From contig CASFMA010000058.1 in the NCBI GenBank assembly GCA_949295675.1, positions 1 to 35,663 on the forward strand: a stretch of 35,663 bases of DNA, given 5' to 3'. Shown one piece after another: positions 8,011 to 21,512 of the stretch. Position 1 is the first letter of the stretch. Each line of letters begins with the position of its first letter. Both the position numbers and the translations under genes were made by a program. The DNA is from an uncultured Spirochaetales bacterium (GTDB lineage: Bacteria > Spirochaetota > Spirochaetia > Sphaerochaetales > Sphaerochaetaceae). The notes under the pieces are model-generated. The model saw only the letters and a program-made list of their open reading frames with translations. It searched no databases and had not been told where the DNA came from.

Positions 8011-8181
8011 TCAGATACGTGATAAACCCTGCACTGCCATTGATTCTATAGTACCGACAGCACAGCCGAACTTAGGCACTGTCACGCATTCCTCGTCATT
8101 AACCTTCTCGCCCTTGAATAAATGGTCGAGGTCTCCAAGAACCCGCACATGTCCGAAGGCCTCAAGATAGCCAGACAGAGC
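8011..8181 (-). pseudogene. C-terminal fragment of an unidentified protein, fused to the tape-measure remnant
   Basis: In a frame different from the tape-measure gene, a 56-codon open stretch runs from just after a TAG to a TGA at 8011. It has no start codon. It reads as plausible protein (YLEAFGHVRVLGDLDHLFKG, then a segment ending AVQGLSRI), with good codon use. It looks like the C-terminal end of a longer gene joined to the tape-measure start by deletion. I do not recognise the family. Confidence 0.4.
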
Positions 8182-8890
8182 CTATCTTCTCCAGCTTCCC
8201 GGTGTCAGTATCAGCGATAGCCGCAGCCATATCGCCATAGGTGCCTGCGACTTCAGCAAGAAGAAGCTGCTGCGCTTCATAGAGGCCATTCTGTTCCTGG
8301 ACTTTCTTTATATTCTCAGCCTGCTTTTCTGTAAGCTGTATTCCCTTCTCTTTCAGGGATTCAATCTCGCCTACTGGATCCGCAAGTGCCTGAGCCAGAT
8401 CATGTACAGCACCGATTGCATCATCCCCGATTGCTACAGCCATATCAAGGACTGTTTTGATAGCCTCTGGCAATGTCTCTCGGCTTATCTTCCTTGTCGC
8501 TATAAGCATCTGCTCTACAGCAATGATCTCCTGATCAGTATATGTGGTGGTCTTCGAGAAAGCATCCGCAAGATCCAGAAGCTCTCCTGTCGACATACCG
8601 ATGACATTCTGTGTAGCACGAAGGGTAGCTTGAAATTTACGCTCTGCAAGCTCCTGGGCTGAATAGGCTGTAACGAGTTCAGCTCCAGCTCTTGCAACAA
8701 CACCGATTGCTTTGGCTACAACTCCAGCAGCTGTTGTAATGGCAGCGAACCCAGCAGCGACAGAAACAAATGATCTCCTTGTCTCCTCGCTTTCTTTCTG
8801 CAGTTGATCAAGCTTCTGCTTGATAGACTGAATACCCGCAACAGCCTGCTGAGTATTTGCTGAAATTTGGATTGCAATATTAGATGCCAT
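8162..8890 (-). pseudogene. Phage tail tape-measure protein, N-terminal remnant
   Basis: The 242-residue product starts MASNIAIQISANTQQAV and continues with a helical, Ala/Gln-rich region (VAGIQSIKQKLDQLQKE), a hydrophobic stretch (about 45-75) and the AxxxGVS-like tape-measure helices (LDLADAFSKTTTYTD, ALADPVGEIESLKEKGIQLT). The ending DTGKLEKIGSVW is the point where tape-measure proteins usually continue for several hundred residues; here a stop follows at 8162. The protein is therefore truncated and probably non-functional. It is preceded, in normal phage order, by a small membrane protein and a tail-assembly chaperone. The ATG at 8890 has a weak AAGG upstream. Confidence 0.72.
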
Positions 8891-11088: not shown

Positions 11089-11472
11089 TCAGGCAAGCGC
11101 TATGACCTCAATCTCAACCTGTACATCCTTCGGAAGCTTCTGCACGGCTACTGCCGAACGGGCAGGAAGGACAGGAGCTGAAGCGAAAGCCTCTGCATAG
11201 ACTTCATTGACAGCTGCAAAATCATCCATGTTCTTCAGGAATACAGTTGCCTTGACAACCTTCGTGATATCAGAGCCCGCGGCACTGAGGACTGCATTGA
11301 TGTTCCTGAATACCTGCTTTGCCTGATCTGCGGCATTTCCTTCCACGATGCTCCCTGTTGAAGGATCTATAGGGATCTGGCCTGATGCGAATATCATCCC
11401 ATTGACCTTTACAGCCTGGCTGTATGGTCCTATAGCAGCAGGGGCTGCCTTTGTCTCGATTCTCTCAATCAT
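11089..11472 (-). CDS. ridA: RidA-family enamine/imine deaminase
   Basis: This 127-residue YjgF/YER057c/UK114 family protein is a cytoplasmic trimer that hydrolyses reactive 2-aminoacrylate and other enamines released by PLP enzymes. Typical features are AAPAAIGPYSQAVKVNG, FASGQIPIDPSTG, the active-site Arg105 in PARSAVAV and Glu120 in VQVEIEVIA. Length is standard. Its start overlaps the HAD phosphatase stop by four bases (ATGA), so it is the last gene of the operon. The same operon encodes a PLP aminotransferase, and DpaL nearby makes 2-aminoacrylate, so the context fits the known role. Confidence 0.95.
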   Translation of the reverse strand: MIERIETKAAPAAIGPYSQAVKVNGMIFASGQIPIDPSTGSIVEGNAADQAKQVFRNINAVLSAAGSDITKVVKATVFLKNMDDFAAVNEVYAEAFASAPVLPARSAVAVQKLPKDVQVEIEVIALA

Positions 11473-12128
11473 ATTTCTCCTCCGTTTATAGACTGGACAT
11501 ATCCATAGATTCCGTCAGTATCATCAGCATACGGGATATCACCGGCATCAGAGCAGGAAGAGAAGCCAAAGCCATACCGAACTGCAAGGAAAGGCGTCCC
11601 GGCATCTTCCGCGCCTTTCAGGTCATTGAGGGTATCGCCAACCATAAGCACTTCATCGCTTCCTATTCCAAAATCCGATATACACAGCCGTATGATATCA
11701 CCTTTAGTGCGGTTCTCCGCTTCATTGGAACCATGGATTGAGTCAAACAAGCCATCCACTCCAAGGTTCTGAAGGCAAAGATGCACAAGCTCCTCACCCT
11801 TGAAAGTCGCAACGCCTGTCCTGATGCCAAGAGCCCTCAGCTTCAGGAGAAGCTCCTTCATCCCGGGATACAGGCTCATCATGCGGTATCCCCTTTCAAG
11901 ATACTCCTTCCTGTATATCCTCAATGCGTCATCAATCAATGCAGGATCAAGATCGAACGCAATCCTGAAACAGTCCCTCAGCGGCGGACCGACAAATTTC
12001 CGAAGGTCGCTTTCCCCATACTCCTTGGCATCACCTAAGGCTCTTACCGTATATAAGGCTGTATGGAATATACCCTCGGATGAATCAGCAAGCGTCCCAT
12101 CGAAATCAAAGACCACACCCTTAATCAT
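11469..12128 (-). CDS. HAD-superfamily phosphatase, phosphoglycolate-phosphatase-like
   Basis: This is a 219-residue HAD hydrolase with an alpha-helical cap. Motif I is VVFDFDGTLADS (nucleophile Asp8, acid/base Asp10), motif II lies in RTGVATFKGEE, motif III is a Lys in the EAENRTKGD segment, and motif IV is VGDTLNDLKGAEDAG. The start is placed at ATG 12128 (MIKGVVFDF), because an upstream in-frame start at 12152 lies inside the preceding gene and adds non-homologous residues. The start overlaps the inositol-phosphatase-family stop by eight bases, and the stop overlaps ridA. The substrate is not determined; phosphoglycolate or a nucleotide/sugar phosphate are the usual ones. Confidence 0.85.
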   Translation of the reverse strand: MIKGVVFDFDGTLADSSEGIFHTALYTVRALGDAKEYGESDLRKFVGPPLRDCFRIAFDLDPALIDDALRIYRKEYLERGYRMMSLYPGMKELLLKLRALGIRTGVATFKGEELVHLCLQNLGVDGLFDSIHGSNEAENRTKGDIIRLCISDFGIGSDEVLMVGDTLNDLKGAEDAGTPFLAVRYGFGFSSCSDAGDIPYADDTDGIYGYVQSINGGEI

Positions 12129-12894
12129 CCAGCAGCTCCAGCACGCGTTCATGCACAGCCGATGATGTTGCGACTATATCCATGGAGGATTCATCATCAG
12201 AAAGAAGCGTGATCCTTCCGCCAGCCTCCCTTACTATCATGATGCCCGCGGCACAGTCATATATATGAAGGCCAAGCTCATAGTAGGAAGTACAGCGGCC
12301 ACAGGCGACATAGCATAAAGACAGAGCAGCAGACCCGATTGACCGCATGTCAGAGAAAAGCTCATAGAACCGCCTCATCTGCACCATATATCCATCCATG
12401 CGAAGATGGTTCCTGTGAGGAGGGACAAGAAGCGCAAGCGTCTCAGACACGTCTTCCCTCTCATCGGTGTGGATCGGTGAGCCATTGAGGAAAGCACCTT
12501 CTCCGCGGATCGCGGAAAAGACCTCGCTCTGCCTGGGAACAGCAACGATACCGAATGCAATGCCATCTTCGTCCTCATATGCGATCGAGATCGTATAGCA
12601 TGGGAACGATGACATGAAATCAACAGTCCCGTCTATAGGATCTATTATCCAGCGCCTAGAATGGCCGGAGACCCCTCCATACTCTTCACCAAGAATCTGG
12701 TCATCTGGGAACTCTTCCGATATTATTGACCTGATGAGCTTCTCAGACATGCTGTCTGCCGCTGTGACATAGTCATTGCATCCCTTGAAGCTCACATCAG
12801 ACCTGAGGCCCTCATGCGAAAGGAGAAAAGAGGAAGCCTCATCTGCAGCCCTGCGTGCAGCTTCAAATCTCCTATGCAGCTCTTTCCTGTCCAT
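12121..12894 (-). CDS. Inositol monophosphatase-family phosphatase
   Basis: This 257-residue Mg/Li-sensitive sugar phosphatase carries the family metal sites: GEEYGG (69-74), WIIDPIDGTVDF (with DPIDGT at 85-90) and the C-terminal YDCAAGIMIVREAGG signature. The start is set at ATG 12894 (MDRKELHRRF), two bases after the stop of the acidic-repeat gene and behind AGGGGA. A longer frame reaches into that gene and is not supported. Members act on inositol phosphate, NADP(H), 3'-phosphoadenosine phosphates or fructose 1,6-bisphosphate; the sequence does not decide between them. The following HAD phosphatase is translationally coupled. Confidence 0.88.
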   Translation of the reverse strand: MDRKELHRRFEAARRAADEASSFLLSHEGLRSDVSFKGCNDYVTAADSMSEKLIRSIISEEFPDDQILGEEYGGVSGHSRRWIIDPIDGTVDFMSSFPCYTISIAYEDEDGIAFGIVAVPRQSEVFSAIRGEGAFLNGSPIHTDEREDVSETLALLVPPHRNHLRMDGYMVQMRRFYELFSDMRSIGSAALSLCYVACGRCTSYYELGLHIYDCAAGIMIVREAGGRITLLSDDESSMDIVATSSAVHERVLELLDD

Positions 12895-12896
12895 GC

Positions 12897-15800
12897 TCAC
12901 TTTCCCCTTGCTATAAGCTGTTCTCCGACTATGCGGCATATCTTCCAGTTCGAAGGAGAGAAGGAGGATGGCGTAATCTTCCTCTCCTCTGCTGAAAGCA
13001 GGATGAAATCATCATCGAAAGAGAGGACGAGAGCATTCCATGAGCCTGCATGGCGGGAATACATCACAGCACCGGCATTGTTCAGGATCTCCTCCCTGCG
13101 AATATCGTCCATGACGACTTTAGGAGTGGCTATGAGTATGGAAAGGGAATAATCGAAGATCGAGAACATCTTGTCCTTCCCATCTTCTTTCTGCCTGTTC
13201 CAGCTTCTTCTTATGACATCCTCAAGATATGACTGCATATCAGGGCCAGATGAACGTATGAAGTCAACAAACGTACTCTTTGCCCCGACTTTCGCTGCAA
13301 TATCCTTAAGCACGCCAGAAAGATCAGAGAAATCATCTGCAGCAGTGCCGTCCCCATTGCCGACCATCACGAAAACAGAGCCTTCCCCGCTCCCATCATC
13401 TGAACGCTTGATGACCCCACGGTCAACCATATCTGAAACATTATCCGCATCAGTATGCTCTGAAACGGTATCATCAGCATCTTCTCCGCCATCTGATGAG
13501 ACATCTGCCATGGCAGCTCTTTCAGGTTCGGCATCAGGAGTTTCCGAAGCAGCCTCAGGGCTGCATGCAGCTTCCTCAGCATCTTCCGATCCATGCTCAA
13601 TATCGCTATCAGGAATCATGCTGCCATCTTCAAAGATGGTCTCTGAGGACTCCTCTATACCTTCGTCAATATCGGAATCAGCTGCAGCGCTCTCTTCTGC
13701 ATCGTCAAGGGAAGATTCAGGGCTGCAAACGGCTTCCTCTGCATCTTCCGGTCCCTGCTCAATATCGCTATCAGGAATCATGCTGCCATCTTCACTGATG
13801 GTCTCTGATGACTCCTCTATACCTTCATCAATACCGGAATCAGCTGCAGCGCTCTCTTCTGTATCGTCAAGGGAAGATTCAGGGCTGCATGCAGCTTCCT
13901 CAGTATCTTCCGGTCCCTGCTCAATATCACTGCCATCTTCGCTGATAGCCTCTGGATTCTCCTCAGCCTCATGATCATCATCTGCAGCATCGCAAGACAC
14001 TGAATCGGCAGAGGATTCTTCACATCCAATAGAAGAGGCTTGGGTATCATCAGGATACTCTTCATCTTCAGAGGTTTCATCGCTTTCATAAATCGCAGTT
14101 GGAACGTAATCATCAGAAGAAGATTCCTGATCCATAGGTTCATGCACTGATTCAGGAGCAGCTGACCAGTCTGGAGCCTCTTCTTCATGTCGGGCTTCCT
14201 GCTCCTTTATGTAAGCAGTCGCGAAATCAGAAGCTTCAGACTCTTCCTCCTCATACTCAGCTTCCTCCTCCTGGCTTACCTCTTCTGTCTCCAATTCAGA
14301 TTCTGTCTCCTCTTCCGGGTTATCGAAGAGCCCCTCGAAGAGGTCAGCCTGATCACTGTCGTAAGGGCTTTCCTTCTGATAGAGATCTTCCTTCTCTACC
14401 TCATCATAGAGCTCTTCATCCTCTATCTCATCCTCATCATCAGGAGGCAGCACATCGCCTTCCTCATAGCTGTAGTCGTCATCATCCAGCTCTTTCTCGT
14501 ACTCATCAGCTTCTGCATCGCTTTCCTCATCTTTCTTTATGAGCTCGCTTGTAAGCTCATACTTATCCTGAAGCCTCCTGATCTCCTCCTCGCTGGGAGA
14601 GACCTGATGGTACTCAGGAAGTGGAGATTCATCCAGGGCCTTCTCCTTCTCAGCGATGGCCTTCGCCTTCTCGTCATCATCCTCCCTGTCATACTCATAC
14701 TCGTCTGAGATCTCATCATCGACATCATCGACAACTTCCTTGTCATCGATATCATCCTCATCAAGGTAATCAAGTATCTCAGTCTTCTCAGGAAACTCCA
14801 GCGAACCGAATATGGTACGGTGGAACTCTTCCCTTCCTTCTGGGGAATTCGCTGCCTTTATAAGATAGTAGACAGATGATGAGAACACGCCATCGCTGAC
14901 AAGCTCAAGCGGATCAGAGCTGTCAGGATCGAGTATCAGCAGCTTATGCCCGTCCTGAGGCTTCACATGCTTGTCCTCTTCATGCTGGTGCACCCTTGAT
15001 TCATAAAAGGCAGGATTCTCTACAGCATTGACCTCCGTGACCGATGAAAGTATCGAGATATCAACCTTGTTTCCATCGAATGAATAAACGCCAACCGTAT
15101 CAGTCTCAGAGAAAAGCAGCCTGCATGCAGCAGCTGCTGCCGCACTGTCACGAAGATAAAGTCCGGCATTAAGTGCCAAGATGCGCTGGCCATATGAAAG
15201 TATATGGGACTGGACAAATGAGAAATACATCGAGCCGAACCTGACAAATGGAAAGACAGTTGCCGGCCAGAGTCCTTTCCTCAGGTATTCGCTGATATCC
15301 AAAGAGCCGATAGGCCTTGAAAGCGACTGATAGACATCGCTTGGAAGATCAGCCGCGAACTCCGGACGGAACAAGTCAAAATCATCACGCCTGCCCTGCA
15401 GGTCACGGACACGCATCTCCCACTTGTTCTCACGGACTATCTCATCGCGGATATCATCATCAGAACGGCCGGAATCGCCTTCCTCTGCCCTTTTCCTGGC
15501 CATAAGCAGAAGCATCTCGGCCTTGTAGACAGAAAAATCCTCAGAAAGCTTATCGATGCCTTCAAGCCCATATACAGCGATCTTCTCTATCCCGGAAACA
15601 AGCGTCCTCAGATCTGTCCCGAACTTCTCCTTTATGATCTTCTCATCATCAAAGGCATAGCCATACCAAAGGCATGCGTATTTCTCTATAGACCCGTGGC
15701 TCTCTTCTGGCGGGAAGAACTGTGCTGTGAGGACCGCACGATAGCTCTCAGCGTTCTCTTCAGAGACAAGGCCGCTCCTGACAGCATAGACAGTATAGCT

Positions 15801-16178
15801 TTCTATATATCTCAGGAGCCTCTTGACTGTATCCTCAGCAAGCGACAGCACCCTGTTCCAGTCCTTCTGCTTTATATCGCGGTTGGTAGAAGCTGGATAG
15901 GAGGTATCGTAGAGCGTTGACTGGAGGATAGACTGAAGCAGGACAGGAAGGAGATGGGCATACAACCCCTGGAATTCGTCCCGGTTCTTCGTCCGTGATA
16001 TGCGCCTCTCTTCCCAGGCTGCCATCTTAAGCATCTCAAGAGGATGATAAGGCCTCATCGTCTTCGCGATATTCTTCATATCCAGCCCCAGATAGTTCAG
16101 GGCTTCCTGCATGTTCTTCTCAGCTTTCTCCCTGGACATCGCAGCAAGGGATGAAAAGTCGGCAAACAATGAGTCCAC
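12897..16178 (-). CDS. 1093-residue acidic repeat protein of unknown function
   Basis: I do not recognise the family. Three parts are visible. Residues 1-470 are a mixed, folded-looking region that starts helical (MSREKAEKNMQEALNYLG) and has a hydrophobic patch (WPATVFPFVRFGSMYFSFV). Residues 470-930 are an extremely acidic, low-complexity region (mostly Asp, Glu and Ser), including two and a half 54-residue tandem repeats. Residues 930-1093 form a second folded-looking domain (VFVMVGNGDG, SIFDYSLSILIATPKVVMDD, ALVLSFDDDFILLSAEE). There is no signal peptide or membrane span, so it is probably cytoplasmic. The start is GTG at 16178 behind a strong AAGGAG. It lies between a PLP aminotransferase gene (18 bp upstream) and the inositol-phosphatase-family gene (2 bp downstream), so it is cotranscribed with metabolic enzymes. 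Confidence 0.85.
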   Translation of the reverse strand: MDSLFADFSSLAAMSREKAEKNMQEALNYLGLDMKNIAKTMRPYHPLEMLKMAAWEERRISRTKNRDEFQGLYAHLLPVLLQSILQSTLYDTSYPASTNRDIKQKDWNRVLSLAEDTVKRLLRYIESYTVYAVRSGLVSEENAESYRAVLTAQFFPPEESHGSIEKYACLWYGYAFDDEKIIKEKFGTDLRTLVSGIEKIAVYGLEGIDKLSEDFSVYKAEMLLLMARKRAEEGDSGRSDDDIRDEIVRENKWEMRVRDLQGRRDDFDLFRPEFAADLPSDVYQSLSRPIGSLDISEYLRKGLWPATVFPFVRFGSMYFSFVQSHILSYGQRILALNAGLYLRDSAAAAAACRLLFSETDTVGVYSFDGNKVDISILSSVTEVNAVENPAFYESRVHQHEEDKHVKPQDGHKLLILDPDSSDPLELVSDGVFSSSVYYLIKAANSPEGREEFHRTIFGSLEFPEKTEILDYLDEDDIDDKEVVDDVDDEISDEYEYDREDDDEKAKAIAEKEKALDESPLPEYHQVSPSEEEIRRLQDKYELTSELIKKDEESDAEADEYEKELDDDDYSYEEGDVLPPDDEDEIEDEELYDEVEKEDLYQKESPYDSDQADLFEGLFDNPEEETESELETEEVSQEEEAEYEEEESEASDFATAYIKEQEARHEEEAPDWSAAPESVHEPMDQESSSDDYVPTAIYESDETSEDEEYPDDTQASSIGCEESSADSVSCDAADDDHEAEENPEAISEDGSDIEQGPEDTEEAACSPESSLDDTEESAAADSGIDEGIEESSETISEDGSMIPDSDIEQGPEDAEEAVCSPESSLDDAEESAAADSDIDEGIEESSETIFEDGSMIPDSDIEHGSEDAEEAACSPEAASETPDAEPERAAMADVSSDGGEDADDTVSEHTDADNVSDMVDRGVIKRSDDGSGEGSVFVMVGNGDGTAADDFSDLSGVLKDIAAKVGAKSTFVDFIRSSGPDMQSYLEDVIRRSWNRQKEDGKDKMFSIFDYSLSILIATPKVVMDDIRREEILNNAGAVMYSRHAGSWNALVLSFDDDFILLSAEERKITPSSFSPSNWKICRIVGEQLIARGK
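13545..13943 (-). repeat. 162-bp tandem repeats within the acidic protein gene
   Basis: Two full and one partial copy of a 162-bp unit encode 54-residue repeats with DIEQGPED near the start, then CSPESSLDD, SAAADS and DEGIEESSET. The copies begin at residues ~751, 805 and 859. Copies differ at few positions, which points to recent duplication and possible copy-number variation between strains. Confidence 0.85.
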
Positions 16179-16196: not shown

Positions 16197-17405
16197 TCAG
16201 TCAGAAAGGCCCATTACAGTACGTCTGTAAGCCTTCAATCCTTTCTCCAGGCACTTTGCTGCCATCACAAGCTCATTCTCGTTCAGGACATATGCGAACC
16301 TTGCCTGGCTCTTGCCCAGCCCCTTGGAGACGTAGAAGTCCTCTGCTGGAGCAAACATCACAGTATTCCCTTCATAGGAGAAATCACGAAGCATGAAAAG
16401 AGCAAAGCGCTCCGCATCATCAACAGGCAGATCAGCGACGAAATAGAATGCGCCTTTCGGCAAGCTGCACCTGACGCCTGGGATCCTCTGCATGTTGGAT
16501 ATCAGCACATTGCGGCGCCTCTCGTATTCAGCCCTTACATTCTCGACATACTCATCAGGAGCCGTAAGCGCAGCAGCTGCCGCAACCTGCTCGACGACCG
16601 GAGGGCAAAGGCGTGCCTGCGAGAGCTTAAGGACAGAATCAATTACTTCCTTATTCCTTGTGACTATCGCACCGATTCTCGCGCCGCACATGCTGAAGCG
16701 CTTCGAGAATGAATCGACGCAGATGACCCTGTCCTGATAATCGGAGAAGCTCAGGACGGAAGTGAACGACTTACCGTCATAGCAGAACTCCCTGTACACC
16801 TCATCAACAACAAGGAAGATATCATGCTTCCTGCAAAGCTCAAGAAGTCCCCTGAGTTCCTCGGTTGAATATACATGGCCAGTAGGATTATTAGGAGAGC
16901 AAAGCATTATGCCCATTGTCTTCTTGTTGATCTTCTTCTCGAAATCAGCGATTGACGGAAGCACGAAGTTATCATCAGAGGACGATGTCACAGGACGCAG
17001 CGTGACCATTGCCATGTTTGCGAACGTAGCTACGTTTGTGTAGAAAGGCTCCGGGATGATGAACTCATCAAATGGATCGCAGAGCGTCGTGAGCACGAAG
17101 AGGATTGCCTCAGAACCTCCCGTCGTTATGAGGATATCATCCTCAGACAGCGAGAGGCCGTACTTCTTATAGTATGACAGGAGCGCACGCCGAAGATAAA
17201 GCTCTCCTTCCGAGATGCCATATGCGATTATGTCATCATTATAGCCCTGTATGGCCTTTATAGCCTCTACAGGGGTCTTGATATCAGGCTGCCCGATATT
17301 CAGATGAATCACATGGATGCCTTTCTTCACGGCATCCCTTGCATATGGAACCAGCTTCCTTATAGGAGAACACTGGAACCCCGAAATCCTGTTTGACATC
17401 TGCAT
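16197..17405 (-). CDS. Class I/II PLP-dependent aminotransferase
   Basis: This 402-residue fold-type I aminotransferase is of the aspartate-aminotransferase type. Visible are NIGQPDI (substrate loop), TTGGSEA (PLP phosphate contact), CSPNNPTG (169-176), DEVYREF (201-207, the Asp pairing with the PLP ring nitrogen), the Schiff-base Lys235 in DSFSKRFSMCGARIG, and a C-terminal Arg in SQARFAYV. The ATG at 17405 has GAGG seven bases upstream. It starts 10 bases after the PRPP synthetase stop and is followed by the acidic protein gene 18 bases on. The amino-acid specificity (aspartate, alanine or aromatic) is not readable. Confidence 0.9.
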   Translation of the reverse strand: MQMSNRISGFQCSPIRKLVPYARDAVKKGIHVIHLNIGQPDIKTPVEAIKAIQGYNDDIIAYGISEGELYLRRALLSYYKKYGLSLSEDDILITTGGSEAILFVLTTLCDPFDEFIIPEPFYTNVATFANMAMVTLRPVTSSSDDNFVLPSIADFEKKINKKTMGIMLCSPNNPTGHVYSTEELRGLLELCRKHDIFLVVDEVYREFCYDGKSFTSVLSFSDYQDRVICVDSFSKRFSMCGARIGAIVTRNKEVIDSVLKLSQARLCPPVVEQVAAAAALTAPDEYVENVRAEYERRRNVLISNMQRIPGVRCSLPKGAFYFVADLPVDDAERFALFMLRDFSYEGNTVMFAPAEDFYVSKGLGKSQARFAYVLNENELVMAAKCLEKGLKAYRRTVMGLSD

Positions 17406-17415
17406 AGTGCGCCTC

Positions 17416-18699
17416 TTAGTCTGTTATGGAGCTGTCCTGGATGAGCGGAGCTTCCGGATTTGCCTGCGATGAGTCGATAAGCTTCTGTATGAACTTGCGG
17501 TTCTCAAGCAGCGGGGAGATCGAGCGCCCATGATGAAGCCTTGATATGACACGCGCGAAAAGCTCTGTGACATCGGCCTGGACGAACCACTCCTTCTCAA
17601 GCAGCTCCTTTCCCTGATACACCGCATTCGTGCCTATGATCCTCCAGAACACGCCTTCCTTGTAAGCAGCATCGAAGTTCTCGATGGCGTTTCCATTGAA
17701 GAAAGGAAGAGAAACCATGCAGATGATCCTCTTCGCGCCTCTGTTCATAAGCTCGCGCATAGCTATGATCATGGTGCCGCCTGTAGCGATCATGTCATCA
17801 GCCATTATGACTGTCTTGCCCTTTACATCTCCAAGAAGGTTTATGCTCTTTATGTTCGAATGCTTCGCATCCTTTGACACAACGGAGTAATCACGCTCCT
17901 TGTACAGCATTGCAAGAGGCCTGTGGAGACCCTGTGCATAGAACTTGTTCCTCGAGACAGCGCCTGTATCAGGAGATACGACAACGATATCAGGATCAGA
18001 GAAATCTATAAGCTTCCTGAGCGCGATAAGCGTCTGGTATGAGCCATGGAGGTTTTCAAGATGGCAAGTCGTGAATGCGTTCTCGATCTCCCTTGAATGG
18101 ATATCAAGCGTGATGATCCTCGCAACCCCGAGATTCTCGCAGAAATGCGCGAACATGGAAGCTGTCAGAGCCTCTCTCCCGGCTTTCTTATGCTGCCTGG
18201 CATATGGATATGTAGGAAGTACAAGCGTGACGGACTCTGCACCCGCGAGCTTCACGGCATGGATCGTCGTGAAAAGGAACATCAGGTGATCATTCACAGA
18301 AAGCGGCTGAGGTGTCTCAAGGCCTGCGACCTTTATCGGGGCATTGTTGGAGACATCATGCACTATATAGACATGCAGCCCCCTCACCGGATCGATGATC
18401 TCTGCCTTTTCCTCGCCGTTTGCAAACCTGGTGTACTTGACGTTTATCGTCATGTCAGGGCAATGGAAAGCAGTGGGGAGCTTTCCTGCAGGAATCTTCC
18501 TGCTGTCCAGGTCATCTGTGAGCGTAACGAACTTGAGAAGTTCCTCGGGACTCATGTTATGACGCTTCGTCAATGCTTCTGAAAGCTTCTCATAACGGTC
18601 TATATACAGACGCCTGAGGTGCTTCACGACCTTACCTGTGAAATACTCGCTGCCTGGACCTGCGATGATTCCAAGCTTGTGGGGTTTGATGATGCTCAT
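17416..18699 (-). CDS. prs: Ribose-phosphate pyrophosphokinase, divergent long form
   Basis: It makes PRPP from ribose 5-phosphate and ATP for nucleotide, His and Trp synthesis. At 427 residues it is about 110 longer than the usual ~315. The PRPP-binding loop is present as VIMADDMIATGGTM (DDMIATGGT at 301-309, canonical DDMIDTAGT). RFANGEEKAEI (91-101) replaces the usual RFSDGE segment, and the DLH motif appears as LDIHSREIENAF (His201). The extra length lies mainly in an N-terminal insertion (about residues 25-85) and a C-terminal extension. The start is placed at ATG 18699 (MSIIKPHKLG), where the gene-like sequence begins and a promoter sits directly upstream. It is the first gene of the six-gene unit ending at ridA. 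Confidence 0.85.
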   Translation of the reverse strand: MSIIKPHKLGIIAGPGSEYFTGKVVKHLRRLYIDRYEKLSEALTKRHNMSPEELLKFVTLTDDLDSRKIPAGKLPTAFHCPDMTINVKYTRFANGEEKAEIIDPVRGLHVYIVHDVSNNAPIKVAGLETPQPLSVNDHLMFLFTTIHAVKLAGAESVTLVLPTYPYARQHKKAGREALTASMFAHFCENLGVARIITLDIHSREIENAFTTCHLENLHGSYQTLIALRKLIDFSDPDIVVVSPDTGAVSRNKFYAQGLHRPLAMLYKERDYSVVSKDAKHSNIKSINLLGDVKGKTVIMADDMIATGGTMIIAMRELMNRGAKRIICMVSLPFFNGNAIENFDAAYKEGVFWRIIGTNAVYQGKELLEKEWFVQADVTELFARVISRLHHGRSISPLLENRKFIQKLIDSSQANPEAPLIQDSSITD

Positions 18700-18705
18700 A
18701 TGGTC

Positions 18706-18734
18706 ACTGTAATGTAATGATGTGCCTTTGGCAA
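18706..18734 (-). promoter_or_regulatory. Promoter of the prs operon, leaderless geometry
   Basis: On the minus strand there is TTGCCA (18729-18734), a 17-nt spacer and TACAGT (18706-18711), then exactly six bases and the ATG at 18699. No ribosome binding site is present. Confidence 0.55.
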
Positions 18735-18988
18735 GGATTCTTAAAAGGATAAAAGTCCTACCAATACACAATGTCTAATATTAATTCTTTACATGCACTT
18801 AAATTAAAATAAAACATCATTTAATGCAAAAAAGATTGGGGATAACACTTGCTGAAAAGGTAGCCGCTTTCCTTTATCAATCAAGGAAACCATGCAGACG
18901 GCAAAACTGGACTTCGCAGATCAATGATCCATCATCACAATCCAAGCCCATACTCAGATAGGGTTATAAGGACACCTTCATCGCGTTA
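18735..18988. other. Non-coding stretch upstream of the prs promoter
   Basis: This region, with the adjacent repeats, forms a 443-base gap between prs and argH. It is locally AT-rich at 18770-18830. A 45-codon plus-strand frame at 18824-18961 lacks a ribosome binding site and homology and is not called. I see no RNA gene. Confidence 0.4.
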
Positions 18989-19044
18989 TTATCGCCGGAA
19001 TTTTATCGCCGATAATTTATCGCCGGTACTTTATCGCCGATTCT
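18989..19044. repeat. Four tandem 14-bp repeats
   Basis: Four exactly phased 14-bp units share TTATCGCCG: TTATCGCCGGAATT, TTATCGCCGATAAT, TTATCGCCGGTACT and TTATCGCCGATTCT. Units 1 and 3 continue with G and units 2 and 4 with A, giving a 28-bp higher-order period. They lie 255 bp upstream of the prs promoter and 99 bp past the argH stop. They may be regulator sites or a small satellite. Confidence 0.9.
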
Positions 19045-19142: not shown

Positions 19143-20510
19143 TCAGATTATCACTTCGCTGATTCCAGGGATGAGTGATGAATATACAGATGAAAGATGC
19201 TCCATCTTCGCGCTGCACAGGCCCTCAAGCTCCGACAGCCACTTCTCATCCTTCTCTATCCCAAGATTACCTGCTGTACCTATTGAAGTCCTCTTGCTGA
19301 GGGATGCGACAGGATCCTCCCCTTCTACTTTATCGAGGTTGAGCCCTACATCCTTGTAGCTGTCACGGAAGTTGCCGCCTGAAAGGACTTTCTCCATCAC
19401 CCTGTCAGTAGCATAAAGCTCGGGAGTGCAGGCCGCTATGAGCCTGTCTGGATGCACCTCAAGCTTCGATATCATCTCGCTCATTATCAGAAGAAGCTCC
19501 TCAGTGCTTCTGAATCCCTCTATGAGAGGCTCCTTCGTATCCTGGAAATCCCTGTTGTAGCCTGAGGGCAGAGCCTTGATTATCGACTTGACGCGCATCG
19601 AGCAGGATGCGATCAGCGCAGTCCTTGACCTGGCAAGCTCAAGTCCATCAGGATTCTTCTTCTGCGGCATTATGGAGGAACCTGTGCACAGTTCCCTTGG
19701 CAGTGAGAAGTATCCGAACTCAGGAAGAGTGAAGAGCATGAGATCCTGCGCGAGCTTCGATACCGTCAGGGCAAGATACTCAGCATGATCAAGGAAGATA
19801 GCCTCGAACTTCCCCCTTGAGTTGTTCGCATAAAGCACATTGTTCTGGACACGGGAGAAACCCATGAGGGATGATGTATATTCCCTGTCAAGCGGAAGCG
19901 TCACACCATATGATGCGGCAGAGCCAAGCGGGGACTGGTCCAGGACCTTATAGAGATCAAGAAGCATCGCTGTCTCTTCCTCCACCTCCTCTGCAAAGGA
20001 AAGAGCCCAGAGAGCGACTGAAGACGGCATGGCTATCTGCATATGCGTACGCCCAGGCATCGGCACTGAGACATTCGCCTTGGCCAGGTCTATGAGAGAT
20101 GAGGCAAAGCCGACGGCAGCAGATGAGAGCTTGAGCACAGCTTCCCTCATGTACAGCCTCAGAGCGGTCTGGACCTGGTCATTGCGGCTGCGCCCTGTAT
20201 GGATCTTCTTCCCGACTGTGCCTGATCTCTCTGTCAGGAAGCCTTCGATTGCTGTATGGCAGTCCTCATCTGAAAGCTTTATTGGAAATGAATTGCTCTT
20301 TCTCATGGCAGCGATCTCTGAAAGCCCTGAAAGAAGCATATCAAGCTCATCTTCAGAAAGTATCCCTATCCTGCAGAGCCCTCTTGCATGGGCCGCAGAG
20401 CCTATAAGATCCGAAAGCACAAGCTCCTGGTCATACACATAATCATTACGTACGGTAAAATGCTCCATCATGGAATCGAGGGTATAGTTTTTCTGCCAAA
20501 GTTTAGCCAT
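19143..20510 (-). CDS. argH: Argininosuccinate lyase
   Basis: This 455-residue fumarase/aspartase-superfamily enzyme catalyses the last step of arginine synthesis (argininosuccinate to arginine plus fumarate). Landmarks are IHTGRSRNDQVQT (103-115), GRTHMQIAMP with catalytic His156, and the superfamily signature GSSIMPQKKNPD (277-288) with the catalytic serine. Length is standard (450-470). The ATG at 20510 begins MAKLWQKNY. A GATAAT sits nine bases before it and no ribosome binding site is visible, so a very short leader is likely. argG is not in the window. The lipoprotein gene is divergent from it. Confidence 0.95.
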   Translation of the reverse strand: MAKLWQKNYTLDSMMEHFTVRNDYVYDQELVLSDLIGSAAHARGLCRIGILSEDELDMLLSGLSEIAAMRKSNSFPIKLSDEDCHTAIEGFLTERSGTVGKKIHTGRSRNDQVQTALRLYMREAVLKLSSAAVGFASSLIDLAKANVSVPMPGRTHMQIAMPSSVALWALSFAEEVEEETAMLLDLYKVLDQSPLGSAASYGVTLPLDREYTSSLMGFSRVQNNVLYANNSRGKFEAIFLDHAEYLALTVSKLAQDLMLFTLPEFGYFSLPRELCTGSSIMPQKKNPDGLELARSRTALIASCSMRVKSIIKALPSGYNRDFQDTKEPLIEGFRSTEELLLIMSEMISKLEVHPDRLIAACTPELYATDRVMEKVLSGGNFRDSYKDVGLNLDKVEGEDPVASLSKRTSIGTAGNLGIEKDEKWLSELEGLCSAKMEHLSSVYSSLIPGISEVII

Positions 20511-20567
20511 AGTCGGAAGATTATCAGAAAAAGCGTCATAATCATAGACTCACGGCGTATATATAGC

Positions 20568-21512
20568 ATGAAGCTTCTGCTTGTGATCTCACTGATACTG
20601 GTCGTGCTTTCGGGATGCCCTATGGGAATGGGAAGGGTCTATGACTCATTCCAGGGGCAGGACAGGACACTTCCCCGGATACTTTCATACGGGCTGGCCG
20701 ACAATGCGTCATTCACAATCGTATATGACAAGGTGGTCTATATAAGCGATGCGGAGCTGGACAGGGAAAAGCTCAGCTACAACGCAGAGGGAACGATATT
20801 CACCATACCTCTCGGCATAATGCTCGGAAGGGGCGAAAGAAGGATCCTGTCAGTCACTGCAGAGGATATGATCGGCAACACGCTCAGATCATCGTTCATC
20901 CTAGTCGGCAGGAATCCAGATATACCTGCGGCTGTCATAAACGAGGCATCAATACAGGGGACAGGCGATGCTCCTGACAGGATTGAGCTGCTGTTCCTCA
21001 GCGAAGGCAACACGGCAGGCCTTGCTCTCTCTGACGGAGGACGGGAAATGTCAAACCACACATTCACGTTTCCTGATATAGAGGTAAGGACCGGGGATAT
21101 GGCGGTGATATACTGGAACTCAGAGCATACCGGCCCTGATACGATAAATGAGAATGGCTATACAGCATATATCCTGGATGGCGGAAGCGATAAGACTCTC
21201 TCTGGGACGAACGGTGCAATCATCCTGTACAAGGAGGAAGGAGGAGAGATCATGGACGGGATAGTATATACGAACGGAGAGAACCCGGATGCTGATGGGT
21301 ACGGAAACAACATAACGCGGGAAGCGGCCCTCATTCTCATTGAAGAGGGAGAATGGGGCGGAGAGCCTGTGGACTCAAGCCTTGTCACATCAAGCAGGGT
21401 GCTTGCAAGGATACCTGGAGGATGGGACACGAATACCTGTGATGACTTCTTCACCACAGAGCCAAGGAAGTCGACGTTCGGCTACCATAACCAGTACTTC
21501 CCATATGAATGA
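20568..21512 (+). CDS. Lipoprotein with a lamin-tail domain
   Basis: The 314-residue product starts with a lipoprotein signal peptide: MKLLL, a hydrophobic core, and the lipobox LSGC with Cys17 as the lipidated residue. Residues ~33-115 look like an Ig-like beta domain (SYGLADNASFTIVYDKVVYI, then RRILSVTAEDMIGNT). Residues ~121-290 match the lamin-tail domain pattern: VINEASIQG, DRIELLFLSEGNTAGLALSD, TFTFPDIEVRTGDMAVIYW, then TLSGTNGAIILY and DGIVYTN. In bacteria such domains occur in surface and exported proteins, often beside nucleases. An in-frame ATG 60 codons upstream is rejected because the signal peptide starts at 20568. It is probably anchored in a membrane facing the periplasm or surface. 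Its role is unknown. Confidence 0.82.
   Translation: MKLLLVISLILVVLSGCPMGMGRVYDSFQGQDRTLPRILSYGLADNASFTIVYDKVVYISDAELDREKLSYNAEGTIFTIPLGIMLGRGERRILSVTAEDMIGNTLRSSFILVGRNPDIPAAVINEASIQGTGDAPDRIELLFLSEGNTAGLALSDGGREMSNHTFTFPDIEVRTGDMAVIYWNSEHTGPDTINENGYTAYILDGGSDKTLSGTNGAIILYKEEGGEIMDGIVYTNGENPDADGYGNNITREAALILIEEGEWGGEPVDSSLVTSSRVLARIPGGWDTNTCDDFFTTEPRKSTFGYHNQYFPYE

Follow-up and report, generated by a model that had tools for sequence, protein, structure and literature searches.

Known clients of the bacterial sliding clamp DnaN are mostly polymerases and mismatch-repair proteins, together with a few others. Clients such as DnaE, DinB, ImuB and RecB share a short Q-x-x-L-F peptide in which an anchoring Gln and a hydrophobic pair are conserved. 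The consensus of this motif, QL[S/D]LF, has been revised to Q-aliphatic-x-[L/M]-[F/L], and the clamp motif of Pol III is quoted as QADMF (PMC13254535). A peptide of this type, QADLF, which fits the revised consensus and lies one residue away from the Pol III motif, is found in a 1093-residue protein encoded in the stretch of DNA analysed here (35,663 nucleotides, hereafter the window), which comes from an uncultured Spirochaetales bacterium whose assembly (GCA_949295675.1) is 78% complete. Unlike the described clients, however, this protein has no recognised catalytic domain such as a polymerase or a helicase, carries its motif mid-protein in a 480-residue acidic linker, and is restricted to one bacterial family. 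Two other described systems bear a likeness to its N-terminal half, namely the PD-(D/E)XK nucleases (McrC, EndoMS/NucS, the TIP26 fold) and the anti-phage protein Upx (PDB 9wuf).

We propose, with a probability of about 0.6, that the protein is a Sphaerochaetaceae-specific genome-maintenance factor recruited by the clamp, its acidic linker serving as a tether. Such a vertically inherited factor would dock on DnaN via the QADLF peptide in its disordered linker, and the linker, self-repelling and also repelled by DNA, would form a long tether holding both folded ends near the DNA-loaded clamp. There, the N-terminal half (helices followed by a nuclease-like fold that lacks the canonical Lys) and the small C-domain would engage DNA or protein partners during replication or DNA repair; DNA binding, regulation of client exchange and end protection are conceivable tasks. 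The protein is thus pictured as probably an accessory of replication or repair and not as an enzyme of metabolism, and the fact that its neighbour genes are metabolic counts against a role at the clamp.

The gene begins with a GTG codon preceded by AAGGAG, and its product has three parts (Table 1). The earlier note on this DNA, made from the letters alone, had described two folded ends and a long acidic middle, and this was borne out: modelled alone by AlphaFold, the ends reach a mean pLDDT of 92.1 (residues 1-463) and 92.7 (residues ~955-1093) and have an ordinary composition (16% and 15% acidic), and the 480 residues between 466 and 945 contain 39.4% D+E and 4.2% K+R, giving a net charge of -169. 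The near-identical 54-residue repeats that it reported are likewise real according to TRF, and its statement that there is no signal peptide agrees with our inspection by eye of the N-terminus (MDSLFADFSSLAAMSREKAEKN).

Table 1. Coordinates in the window of the 1093-residue protein, its parts and its neighbours.
Feature	Positions	Strand	Basis or remark
RidA	11089..11472	(-)	
HAD-family phosphatase	11469..12152	(-)	most constant neighbour
IMPase-family phosphatase	12121..12894	(-)	tightly coupled, downstream; probable own start ATG 12894, 257 aa
Three-part protein, 1093 residues (N-domain, acidic linker, C-domain)	12897..16178	(-)	ORF, translation
C-domain, residues 955-1093	12900..13316	(-)	AlphaFold model, pLDDT 92.7; alignments
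Acidic low-complexity linker, residues 466-945, probably disordered	13344..14783	(-)	composition
54-residue tandem repeat in unconserved second linker half	13555..13928	(-)	TRF: 162-bp period (54 aa), 2.3 copies, 91% match
Sliding-clamp-type motif QADLF, residues 610-614	14337..14351	(-)	Gln610 invariant in 33/33 rows; consensus PMC13254535
Linker island, residues 536-547	14538..14573	(-)	invariant Tyr540, near-invariant Ile547
N-domain, alpha/beta part, residues 340-460, PD-(D/E)XK-like fold	14799..15161	(-)	weak fold matches, residue counts
N-domain, helical part, residues 1-300	15279..16178	(-)	AlphaFold mean pLDDT 92.1 for 1-470; conserved in genus alignment
Class I/II aminotransferase, PRK07568 type	16197..17405	(-)	
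Ribose-phosphate pyrophosphokinase prs, PRK06827 type	17416..18771	(-)	

The N-domain was present in 35 of the 36 genomes of the window's genus first searched, and every one of the 33 rows of the genus alignment has the acidic linker, variable in length and 34-45% D/E, so the architecture is more than a chance feature. The three-part protein recurs across most genera of the Sphaerochaetaceae, and we take this family as its range because its named relatives are Candidatus Ornithospirochaeta, Spirochaetales and Sphaerochaetaceae MAGs, and Sphaerochaeta. Sampling of other families of the class or phylum gave no N-domain beyond borderline hits that we attribute to chance, and phage, plasmid and viral-contig collections held no relatives of the protein. 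Other candidates were discarded: a phylum-wide search with the C-domain gave weak hits to GGDEF/EAL proteins (L149-L152) from a different family of the class, in which the GGDEF loop reads KKDKMFRI, a resemblance judged coincidental; a second weak hit, in G014, is YicC; and the ~610-aa gene found at the same place in genera lacking the protein encodes an epimerase of polysaccharide synthesis and is no divergent copy. Within the family, the architecture varies: the N-domain is shorter in rumen clades, some proteins consist of linker and C-domain only (249-419 aa), and in the L108 lineage the N- and C-parts lie on separate ORFs.

The linker is not uniform. Up to about residue 640, the genus alignment contains conserved peptide islands (DEYEYD at 492-497, Tyr540 with Ile547, and 607-617), with Tyr540 and Gln610 as the only invariant linker positions in the 33 rows; these islands, above all the clamp-type motif, had been missed by the earlier note. 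Between residues 650 and 945, there is almost no position-specific conservation and the charge is kept. Composition and lack of conservation together suggest that the linker is probably disordered. Its length evolves through repeat expansion, as in a Sphaerochaeta-type copy (L126, 5701-8910), where it is largely made of dozens of EPIAEP-like hexapeptide repeats. Of the functions first suggested for the acidic middle, that of a spacer survives, since residues 650-945 drift and keep their charge, but the binding of basic proteins or metal ions found no support here.

These same properties might be read differently: the acidic tract itself could be what acts, pulling basic proteins off DNA or off the clamp as a DNA mimic or a histone-like decoy, and the folded ends would do no more than position it. 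The net charge, a composition kept while the sequence drifts, and a length maintained by repeat expansion (the 54-aa repeats here, the EPIAEP runs in L126) would all suit such a role, comparable to that of the acidic tail in RNA polymerase delta. However, L130, a complete genome, keeps both folded ends and has almost no linker, and the sequence of the peptide islands in the first half is constrained, which makes this reading improbable in our eyes.

A tether docked on the clamp, as we prefer to see it, directs attention to the peptide around Gln610. In the window, it reads DQADLFEGLF, and among relatives we find DPDQLTFFDELF, DPDQLDFLDLL, GQLYLFDD and GQLALFDD. The motif is kept by every intact copy from the window's genus. 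In most members of the genus, the fourth residue is Phe (QL[DTNS]F[LFM]), a form outside the strict consensus, and five further genomes of the genus all have QL[DNST]FL or QSDLF. Eight further genomes of the sister genus (g29) are divided between QLSLF (four) and QL[RMVK]LF (four), two g36-type copies have QFSLF, and Sphaerochaeta mostly has EQPSLF or EQPNLF. The Gln is absent from rumen and short-form clades (LYSSSSLFDE, DPYSGESLFS) and from the g37-type copies L125 and L131. Because several clades thus lack it and L130 has almost no linker, clamp docking would not be universal in the family.

Counts reinforce the notion that the peptide is a genuine motif. A clamp-type regular expression matches 45 of the 64 linkers, where per-linker shuffles predict 0.7, the 64 being relatives and not independent sequences, and placing the motif label on the C-domain tree requires 6 changes compared with 16.4 in shuffles, a degree of clustering that kinship makes likely. 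For this reason, we base the argument on a Gln and a hydrophobic pair that stay fixed while the sequence around them drifts. Among the 27 genes of the window (10,526 residues), QADLF is the only consensus match. Established client types of the same family carry closely similar peptides, mostly QLSLF, QISLF, QMSLF, QPELF, QLELF, QPDLF and the like: GQ[LMI][SA]LF in DnaE, QPELF, QLELF or QMELF in DinB, and QPDLF or QLELF in ImuB-like proteins. The DinB of the window's own genome has QGEFF, again with Phe at the fourth place.

On the side of the clamp, neither dnaN nor dnaE gave a hit in the window's 78% complete assembly, and the binding pocket was therefore checked in relatives. DnaN of eight of them keeps T172, G174, L177, P242, V247, M362 and P363, positions which we take to be those of the pocket from the E. 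coli DnaN sequence. A full-text literature search combining Sphaerochaeta with the sliding clamp returned nothing useful. Taken for itself, docking on DnaN appears likely. We put forward more tentatively, at somewhat below even odds, that the protein represents an undescribed replisome-associated factor of a single bacterial family, docked on the clamp, with a pseudo-nuclease-like N-terminal half, an acidic tether of 350-700 residues and a C-domain of unassigned fold, and kept in almost all genomes of the genus. If true, this would be a new type of replisome accessory, a lineage-wide client with a huge acidic tether and without a recognised enzymatic domain, and a large unannotated Sphaerochaetaceae protein that also occurs in cultured Sphaerochaeta would gain a directly testable hypothesis.

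As to the folded ends, the earlier note had recognised neither, and HMM and structure searches agree in that no named family covers the N- or the C-terminal end. Searches of Pfam, NCBIfam, PHROG and PADLOC, with the ends or entire relatives as queries, gave nothing credible for either end, PDB sequence profiles produced designed-protein noise only, and comparison of the N-domain with viral structures yielded nothing significant. In the AlphaFold model, the N-domain is helical to about residue 300 and alpha/beta thereafter. Its residues 340-460 show several weak fold matches (Z 3.5-5.8) to TIP26, McrC, DdmD, Nt.BspD6I, AF2093 and EndoMS, with D373 and E382 roughly at the catalytic acids, such that D373-E382-x-N384 occupies the place of D-E-x-K; that these matches are nucleic-acid enzymes speaks for a genome-maintenance role. 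Position 373 is D or E and position 382 mostly D or E in the genus rows. In contrast to PD-(D/E)XK nucleases, however, Asn384 replaces the canonical Lys in 33 of 33 genus rows, leaving the catalytic D...(D/E)-x-K incomplete, and the candidate acids (373, 382) are not kept in Sphaerochaeta rows. Because of these two departures, the N-domain probably lacks nuclease activity.

Among solved structures, the N-domain is matched best by Upx (9wuf), with model residues 27-467 aligned onto residues 28-450 of the chain, collinear across both the helical and the alpha/beta part (306 residues, rmsd 9.1) and 2.8 Z above the next row; its Z of 9.1 falls in the range below ~13 that can arise by chance for helical parts, and Foldseek assigns E = 0.77. 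An anti-phage protein with an Upx-related nuclease or sensor domain would account for this match, but we consider it very unlikely. As to sequence similarity, PADLOC, whose library may or may not include an Upx model, gave no match at E up to 10. The gene is a chromosomal core gene with constant downstream neighbours rather than a mobile one, and the lysine of D-E-x-K is N384 in all genus rows. We know of no counterpart of the acidic linker or the C-domain in Upx, on whose structure or function a full-text literature search returned nothing useful.

The C-domain is modelled as three helices followed by b-b-a-b-b-a, and alignments show it to be strongly conserved, with the signature GKDKMFxI...NNAGAVMYS...W. 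Foldseek candidates (GNAT acetyltransferase, TSEN15, DinG) reached a best E of 0.079, and the VIA candidate Prp8 Jab1/MPN a best Z of 5.1, accompanied by several other MPN-fold rows. Because all of these matches fall below the level that can be trusted, we claim no fold for this domain. Since the matches of the N-domain are weak as well, neither end can be given a secure fold, which counts against the preferred reading.

The earlier note had placed the gene in a metabolic operon. The neighbours are as described: the stop codon of the aminotransferase gene lies 18 nt upstream, the ATG of the IMPase gene 2 nt past the stop, and this spacing suggests co-transcription. Other genomes share the arrangement, the usual order in the genus being prs-aminotransferase-gene-IMPase-HAD, often followed by RidA, and its IMPase/HAD part is widely kept. 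However, prs and the aminotransferase do not always accompany the gene, and elsewhere they persist together without it. In Sphaerochaeta, IMPase-HAD-RidA stays downstream and prs/aminotransferase are displaced; in rumen clades, HAD alone follows the gene and prs/aminotransferase are often on the opposite strand. The IMPase gene is not adjacent in L109, L110, L113, L115, L117-L119 and L121-L124, and MFS transporter, AAA/DUF4143 and MscS genes are variably inserted upstream. In genera of the family that lack the protein, prs and the aminotransferase stay paired and are followed by unrelated capD- and nusG-like genes. Because the neighbours vary between clades, the tie to the metabolic genes, above all to the upstream ones, is loose, and the metabolic operon is probably only the neighbourhood of the gene.

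These gene orders bear on another possibility, that the Q-x-x-[LF]-[FL] peptide docks on a partner other than the clamp, for example a neighbouring enzyme, and that the protein is a scaffold of the metabolic operon. IMPase and HAD genes do follow nearly all full-length copies at tight spacing, the other conserved islands, such as the Tyr540 region, may point to more than one partner, and a peptide containing LF persists even in the clades that lack the Gln. We nevertheless regard a scaffold as unlikely: the peptide varies according to the known clamp-motif rules, including exact QLSLF, in forms common to DinB, DnaE and ImuB of these genomes, the IMPase gene is absent from the gene's side in several clades, and prs/aminotransferase are inconstant.

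Several minor observations concern the wider surroundings. In a number of relatives (L023-L027, L029, L030, L034 and others), a single ~340-aa ORF matching HAD takes the place of HAD and RidA, an apparent HAD-RidA fusion. An orphan 242-aa ORF of the window (8162-8890, minus strand) matches a phage tail tape-measure protein (PF06791, phrog_27166); no other phage genes were seen nearby, and it is perhaps a prophage remnant. Between prs and purB, a 14-bp tandem repeat is present in 3.6 copies (18989-19039). Finally, the product of 20388-21512 (plus strand) has no Pfam match, and its gene, conserved but unannotated, stays beside purB and prs throughout the genus and the family.
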